From a virus, in the IMG/VR virus record IMGVR_UViG_3300022752_000098, positions 1 to 53,354 of that record: 53,354 nt of DNA; one strand, 5' to 3'. The notes beneath the pieces are model-generated. The model did not search any database and was not told the origin of the DNA. It saw only the letters and a list, made by a program, of their open reading frames with translations. The position numbers and the translations under genes are program-made. Within the stretch, counting starts at the first letter, position 1, and the number at the start of each line of letters is the position of its first letter. Of the stretch, positions 22,898 through 23,607 are shown piece by piece.

Positions 22898-22903
22898 TAT
22901 ACT
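22898..22903 (+). promoter_or_regulatory. candidate -10 box for the structured region
   Basis: TATACT preceded by TG. The -35 region is poor. An RNA starting 6-8 bases later would begin exactly at the first stem of the structured region (22909). Confidence 0.35.
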
Positions 22904-23000
22904 CTGCCGCGTTGGTGGTGTATTGGGTTAGCGCCGATACAGACTTAACCGTCGGACGAAACGCTTAAAAGCACACTGCTTTATGTGAGCCACCAACGCC

Positions 23001-23086
23001 AACACGCATGGGGATTGACTCGGCAACCAAGGTAGGCGTGGGCTGGAACGATAAGCCCGTTACCACGCACAGTCCCCAGCCGTGTT
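23001..23086 (+). repeat. hairpin unit 1 of a duplicated 17-nt arm pair
   Basis: Left arm 23001-23017, right arm 23070-23086; 15 of 17 positions pair, one as G-T, with a CA/GC internal mismatch. The 52-nt insert folds into GCGTG/CACGC around GGCT/AGCC. Confidence 0.85.
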
Positions 23087-23161
23087 GATGGATGCATACA
23101 TCAATCGTCTTGGACACGCAGACGTTAACGTGAGGTGGATCTCGGTGGAATCCCGAGAGCT

Positions 23162-23223
23162 AACATGCATGGGGATTGTCCTCTGGGGGTTCCCGGAGGC
23201 CCGGAACAGTCCCCAGCCGTGTT
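23162..23223 (+). repeat. hairpin unit 2 of a duplicated 17-nt arm pair
   Basis: The left arm differs from unit 1 at one base (C to T, changing a C-G pair to T-G). The right arm is identical over 17 nt. The same CA/GC internal mismatch is kept. The 28-nt insert is unrelated and folds as CCTC/GAGG around GGG/CCC. Confidence 0.85.
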
Positions 23224-23300
23224 GGCGAACTGTAGTGGAGTGCAACCCCTCATAGTTGTATCTAAAACACGCTGATCGCCAACAAACAATTAAGGACACG

Positions 23301-23504
23301 ATGACATTGCGGGAGTATTTTGAGTCGGAGCCGTTGGGCGCACGTGGTGAGATGGCTAAGTATTTGGGCATTAGCCTGACATGGATGTCGCTGTTAATCC
23401 ATGAGCGTAGAACTGCGTCTGCCGCTTTGGCGGTAAAGATTGAGAAAGCAACTCAAGGGCTGGTCACAAGAAAAGACTTGCGTCCAGATTTGTTTTTCGT
23501 GTAA
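23301..23504 (+). CDS. Cro/YdaS-like helix-turn-helix regulator
   Basis: I start at ATG 23301 with AAGGA five bases upstream; longer frames would enter the structured region. The 67-residue product begins MTLREYFESEPLG. A helix-turn-helix (RGEMAKYLGISLTWMSLLIHER) is followed by ALAVKIEKATQGLVTRKDLRPDLF, the ending typical of YdaS/Cro-type phage regulators. It is the first gene of the rightward early operon and the only obvious transcription regulator in the window, so it probably acts on the nearby early operators. DNA target is inferred. Confidence 0.8.
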   Translation: MTLREYFESEPLGARGEMAKYLGISLTWMSLLIHERRTASAALAVKIEKATQGLVTRKDLRPDLFFV

Positions 23505-23607
23505 CATAGTTTGAAACACGGCTAGGTTTGGGGTAGCTCCCCTTACCGAAAAGCGTCCCATCCCCGCCTGCCGCAGTTTCTTTAGGGATGTGAATTTTGG
23601 GATCGGT

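Follow-up and report, generated by a model that had tools for sequence, protein, structure and literature searches.

A hairpin stretch ahead of a phage regulator gene is one copy of a widespread, apparently undescribed kind of RNA array

What is a gene-free stretch packed with successive hairpins, lying between a promoter and a regulator gene in a viral genome? The question is raised by a 53,354-nt IMG/VR virus record (IMGVR_UViG_3300022752_000098), which as a whole is called the window here. The original prediction, made from the sequence alone, was of a structured RNA or leader with five stems, two of them built on the same 17-nt arms. Most of its details held: the two hairpins on duplicated arms have unrelated inserts (52 and 28 nt), right arms identical over 19 nt, left arms that differ at one base over the 17 nt first noticed (C/T, both pairing with the same G), arm mismatches that are G-T on the + strand, and the CA/GC internal loop in both copies. 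The further stems, i.e. the outer stems of units T0 and T2 and the small hairpin between units, were also recovered (Table 1). However, the promoter described as leftward was not supported, since TATACT points to the right, with the array and the regulator ahead of it. Array sequence begins 6 nt past this box, at about +1, and a consensus promoter scan of the window gave nothing above threshold.

Table 1. Features of the hairpin array and its immediate surroundings, in window positions.
Feature	Position	Strand	Remarks
TATACT, probable -10 box	22898-22903	+	sequence; inferred, no good -35 by consensus scan
T0 (T-frame unit)	22909-22999	+	outer stem GCGTTGGTGG/CCACCAACGC around body a
T0 outer-stem arms	22909-22918/22990-22999	+	
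Body a in T0		+	GGGTTAGCGCC hairpin and CACTGCTTTATGTG hairpin
H1 (H-frame hairpin)	23000-23087	+	arms 23000-23017 and 23070-23087; CA/GC internal loop
H1 insert	23018-23069	+	52 nt
Small inter-unit hairpin	23085-23104	+	TTGATGGATG/CATACATCAA, 90% complementary
Body c	23104-23160	+	CGTCT-TGGACACGC-AGACG hairpin and CTCGG-TGGAATC-CCGAG hairpin (5 bp, 7-nt loop, T-arm-like)
H2 (H-frame hairpin)	23161-23224	+	arms 23161-23178 and 23207-23224
H2 insert	23179-23206	+	28 nt
T2 (T-frame unit)	23221-23283	+	outer stem GTTGGCGA/TCGCCAAC; first 4 nt double as end of H2 right arm
T2 outer-stem arms	23220-23228/23276-23284		
AAGGA, probable ribosome-binding site	23292-23296	+	sequence; directly 3' of array
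YdaS/Cro-like regulator gene	23301-23504	+	67 aa; PF15943, E 2.4e-12; PHROG 35

The hairpin region as a whole folds at -150.4 kcal/mol, with z-scores against shuffles of -3.6 on the + strand and -1.9 on the - strand, and the units T0, H1, H2 and T2 taken singly reach -3.65, -3.0, -4.88 and -3.16, respectively. The arm matches in the window also exceed those of all 100 shuffles, so that structure goes beyond chance and the claim that this is not random intergenic DNA stands. Body c alone folds no better than its shuffles (z +0.4), and the case for its structure rests on covariation for that reason. A leader with five stems is nevertheless an understatement of the stretch, which exemplifies a type of phage RNA array that is found widely and seems not to have been described: its structured modules sit in conserved frames, are shuffled and accessory, and are under selection on the + strand; this much is shown by comparison of sequences, without expression data.

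The 17-nt arm pair belongs to what we call the H frame (ACGCATGGGGATTG-body-CAGTCCCCAGCCGT). A scan found its exact 18-nt right arm in at least 120 IMG/VR viral contigs, and in almost all of those inspected the left arm lies 24-104 nt upstream of it, enclosing 178 distinct inserts of 24-104 nt. Among 84,980 bacterial genomes the 19-nt arm had a single exact match, without a left arm, in an apparent coding gene of a Victivallaceae MAG; it is likely a chance match, and a bacterial-chromosome origin of the window arm was rejected. A coding role of the inserts was also rejected, their lengths being evenly spread modulo 3 (66/62/57) with no periodicity of 3.

Covariation had been proposed with the original prediction as a check, and compensatory changes keep the pairing in all four sets compared (185 distinct H frames, 112 bodies a, 44 bodies c and 100 bodies b), thereby meeting the criterion of compensatory base changes across homologues for a structured phage non-coding RNA. 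Pairing in the H stem reaches 99.1%, and 54 cells are double-compensated, against at most 53% and no more than 6 when one strand is slid by 1-2 positions. G·U cells outnumber A·C cells by 51 to 4 (the constant U·G pair left out) and the + strand is therefore the folded strand, although this bias alone cannot separate RNA from single-stranded DNA folded on the same strand. The claim of a structured + strand RNA is thus strongly supported, transcription itself being inferred. Of the 185 H frames, 150 retain the CA/GC internal loop. The frame also occurs with other stem sequences, such as CAACAGGTAAGAGCATT...AGTGCTCTTTCC-GTTGTGGTG in contigs bearing body b and in phage IME207, and the same plan with different stems and with AUU..AGU and GUUG kept is found in P1 and in lambdoid and Klebsiella phages. 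The broad descriptor used here (six free base pairs, AUU..AGU, then a GUUG stem) imposes pairing, and its matches are by themselves no evidence of covariation.

The second frame, T (GTTGGTG-body-CACCAAC), usually opens directly behind an H frame, as is the case for most H frames, and is followed by AAC-YTA and then by the next unit or a gene. Its bodies are tRNA-like or carry a kissing loop. In Rfam scans several T units (L060, L081, L074 and L016) score as tRNA (34-48 bits), their T stem taking the place of the acceptor stem and their inner arms being enlarged; ARAGORN, in contrast, called no tRNA in L016, L074 or L081. Long extra stems are seen in tRNA-like T units at L074 1921-2033, L016 4108-4220 and L081 6178-6281. 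The likeness to phage tRNA clusters, which extends to D-arm- and T-arm-like hairpins and to the arrays adjoining tRNA genes in D3, P1 and metagenomic phages, is incomplete, since the arrays have no CCA end, their anticodon region is enlarged or replaced, kissing loops take the place of D/T loop contacts, and the units are usually coupled to H frames. The window units are not tRNAs, and neither ARAGORN nor the Rfam model RF00005 found a tRNA gene in the window.

Clustering of the H and T bodies gave 62 recurring families plus many singletons (a few T entries being minus-strand artefacts), and the repertoire is therefore far from exhausted. The same bodies recur in different frames, genomes and orders. 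Body a, which the window holds in a T frame, lies in an H frame in L006 and L010; it was found at 110 loci, and its first hairpin has 209 double-compensated cells compared with 28-83 when slid. Body c occurs at 111 loci, among them the Pseudomonas phages D3 and PAJU2, and has 16 and 57 double-compensated cells. Body b ([stem]-AAUGCGCAGGCUGAUGCGC-insert-GCCGGAGAUCAGCACCGGC-[stem]), which adjoins body c in D3, is laid out as in a tRNA with acceptor-, D-arm- and T-arm-like parts; in its outer stem pairing is at 95% and 184 cells are double-compensated, and its loops GCUGAU and AUCAGC, 98% complementary with 4 compensated cells, likely form a kissing loop, as inferred from their sequence. Rfam scans gave no support to the "skipping-rope" or other published motifs as a source of body b. 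As for the inserts of the window, that of H1 recurs over 51 nt with 100% identity in the unrelated, terminase-adjacent array of L457, and that of H2 is identical in the relatives L036 and L472 at another array position, with other neighbours in L472; the T2 body had no match at any other locus.

Among 75 loci related to the window YdaS/Cro gene, 42 relatives could be anchored and classed, the 27 more distant loci without an anchor being left aside. In 34 of these close relatives the -10 box and the ribosome-binding site have nothing between them, TATACT being less than 60 nt away from where YdaS/Cro starts; the 8 filled ones differ in composition, from single T units to T-H-T and T-H-T-H-T. 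TATACT is kept with or without an array, even where a relative has no other part of the leader in common. The leader claim thus holds only locally, because arrays elsewhere come after a gene or are found in the midst of tRNA genes, and no array is present in most of the relatives whose promoter and gene are the same. A second fixed site, next to the terminase small-subunit gene, has H arrays at 18 loci, T units only at 2, a single arm at 3 and nothing at 47, and in the closest relatives the array lies behind the hairpin of the upstream gene and ahead of the terminase promoter. At this site the arrays of L549, L550, L074 and L540 start right after a G+C-rich hairpin; in the empty relative L553 a T run comes after this hairpin, which gives the impression that a terminator tail has given way to the array.

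Gain or loss of a unit is also directly seen in P1, whose array of units on the H/T plan lies between tRNA-Thr and tciA. The P1 record OP279344 has precisely one T+H unit more than NC_005856, where the flanks of the missing unit join within identical frame sequence (CTTACCGTTGTGATGAA), and P7 lacks a different pair of units. Horizontal exchange is suggested by the body-b segment of P1, which shares 96-97% identity with its counterparts in mEp460 and in IME207, a phage that differs otherwise. In the lambdoid phages IME10, mEp460 and Erwinia phage 59, body b is part of the early-region leader on the cI side, and the D3 and P1 arrays lie inside tRNA clusters. Two annotated P1 genes, plp and upl, run over array units on the opposite strand (L620 545-1114; NC_005856 69472-70041), and it is possible that both are spurious ORFs.

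In regards to transcription, that of the window array on the + strand is inferred from the conserved TATACT directly upstream, the ribosome-binding site directly downstream and the co-directional neighbours. Across loci, crude gene calling gave 98 of 131 arrays a downstream gene that runs in the same direction, and promoter-like sites lie upstream of 22% of arrays against 9% in shuffles, an enrichment of only about 2.5-fold. An intrinsic terminator ends 10 of 166 arrays. In L022, L107, L111, L007 and L075 a short stem and a strong intrinsic terminator come after the final H frame, and with these the array would be a small RNA in its own right.

How, then, might such arrays work? H and T frames would alternate, each displaying a variable body, many of them tRNA-like D-arm/T-arm or kissing-loop folds, and identical frames would let homologous recombination add, drop or swap whole units between phages; this last step is shown for the P1 comparison and its generality is inferred. 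The + strand would be transcribed from whichever promoter adjoins, in the window presumably the one ahead of the YdaS/Cro gene. The product would most likely act in trans, given that the array is dispensable at its site, that its placement with respect to genes varies (within 5' leaders, after genes, inside tRNA clusters or ahead of a terminator of its own) and that bodies are kept across unrelated hosts. In the absence of expression data we lean only slightly (a probability of roughly 0.55) towards accessory trans-acting RNA cargo over an ordinary leader, and this reading is inferred. More speculatively, the likeliest task of the modules would be an accessory one in phage-host conflict, as decoys or inhibitors. 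They would titrate RNA-acting proteins of the host or of rival phages, above all those directed at tRNA. A role against tRNA-depleting defences has been proposed for phage tRNAs (PMC10264068), and the altered anticodon regions of the tRNA-like T units would be in keeping with a decoy; however, no target or partner protein has been identified, and the counter-defence step rests on the accessory distribution and these precedents, not on a test.

The trans-acting reading must be weighed against transcription control in cis, in which an antiterminator like HK022 put, or a nut-like site, lets polymerase pass downstream terminators. The put RNA acts directly on polymerase (PMC9378689) and is likewise a structured RNA in an early phage leader, and this best of the cis rivals is favoured by the window array following the promoter of a rightward early operon and by body b in the cI-side leaders of the lambdoid phages named above, upstream of N-like genes in Erwinia 59. 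It fits poorly, however, with the 34 of 42 anchored relatives that have the same promoter and gene and no array, and with the terminase-site arrays, which lie ahead of the promoter and not downstream, leaving the cis position that put requires unmet. Nor does it account for bodies that are wholly different among relatives at one site or that lie inside the tRNA clusters of D3 and P1. Compared with put (no sequence comparison with it was made), the arrays are dispensable, occupy many unrelated positions and have interchangeable bodies, and we consider this explanation unlikely.

Trans-acting base-pairing sRNAs or sponges of the AgvB, AsxR or Pas type, which would rewire host mRNA or sRNA networks instead of acting as protein decoys, are considered about as unlikely. 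Such prophage sRNAs, with STnc100, are also accessory, mobile and variable RNA genes in similar places (PMC13192938), but they are single genes without frames or arrays, the arrays match none of the Rfam models of AgvB, AsxR and STnc100, most arrays lack a terminator and poly-U tail of their own (present in 10 of 166), and the bodies are compact double-stranded folds with closed loops. Least credible of all is a DNA recombination cassette, with an attC-like or single-strand site and bodies that are passengers without RNA function. The layout of R-box, unpaired spacer and L-box is similar to that of attC, and cassettes are gained and lost at frames. However, passengers would not covary strongly as the bodies do, the attC core GTTRRRY/RYYYAAC is not met (GTTGGTG/CACCAAC misfits at the last two positions), recognisable tRNAs occur among T bodies, the frame stems vary with compensation instead of holding one recombinase site, and homologous recombination within the frames that phages share accounts for the swaps. 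Type III toxin-antitoxin RNA arrays share with attC cassettes, and with the arrays, repeated structural frames and gain or loss of units, whereas array bodies are diverse folds and not genes or identical repeats; no ToxN-type gene was found among the nine neighbouring window proteins scanned, downstream of the array being the YdaS/Cro-like gene and then DUF1376/replication genes. The Rfam model of C4 (C4/P4-type antisense immunity RNA) had no gathering match in the window or in 14 loci.

The novelty of the arrays is provisional. No Rfam 15 family matches the array, an Rfam scan being another of the checks proposed with the original prediction; the whole window has no gathering match, and a relaxed threshold added only a sub-threshold int-alpA and one chance-level match. 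No description of such arrays was found in the open-access literature searched, subscription papers and most preprints being outside its scope, and the nearest described cargo RNAs are the prophage sRNAs Pas, AgvB and STnc100 (PMC13192938). Phage annotation assumes that only proteins and tRNAs are exchanged as cargo, while here RNA folds are the exchanged units, as indicated by dozens of recurring bodies, a conserved scaffold, the precise loss of a unit in P1 and presence or absence at fixed sites. A bolder reading, which we would not yet favour over its negation, is that of combinatorial RNA counter-defence: a two-frame scaffold common to P1, lambdoid and freshwater metagenomic phages would carry interchangeable decoys against RNA- or tRNA-directed defences, and recombination in the frames would make it an RNA anti-defence island. 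The array of P1, a model phage, lies in plain view under two opposite-strand ORFs, which makes the question directly testable with a laboratory strain, and the large, unsaturated pool of compact natural folds should also be of interest to RNA structural biologists.

Two further elements were observed near the arrays. The sequence AAAGCCGTTACWCATGC...GTAACGGCTTTTTT and its variants recur just downstream of the array in L010, L027, L051, L108, L112 and L115 and may represent a conserved terminator or a further RNA motif. The int-alpA RNA (Rfam RF02996) is also a phage RNA motif and is separate from the H and T units: its sub-threshold match in the window (23515-23590; 23.8 bits, cut-off 35.8) lies between the YdaS/Cro and DUF1376 genes, a similar element is found at the same place in L002 and L036, and matches or near-matches lie near the arrays of L372 (40 bits) and L256 (33 bits).
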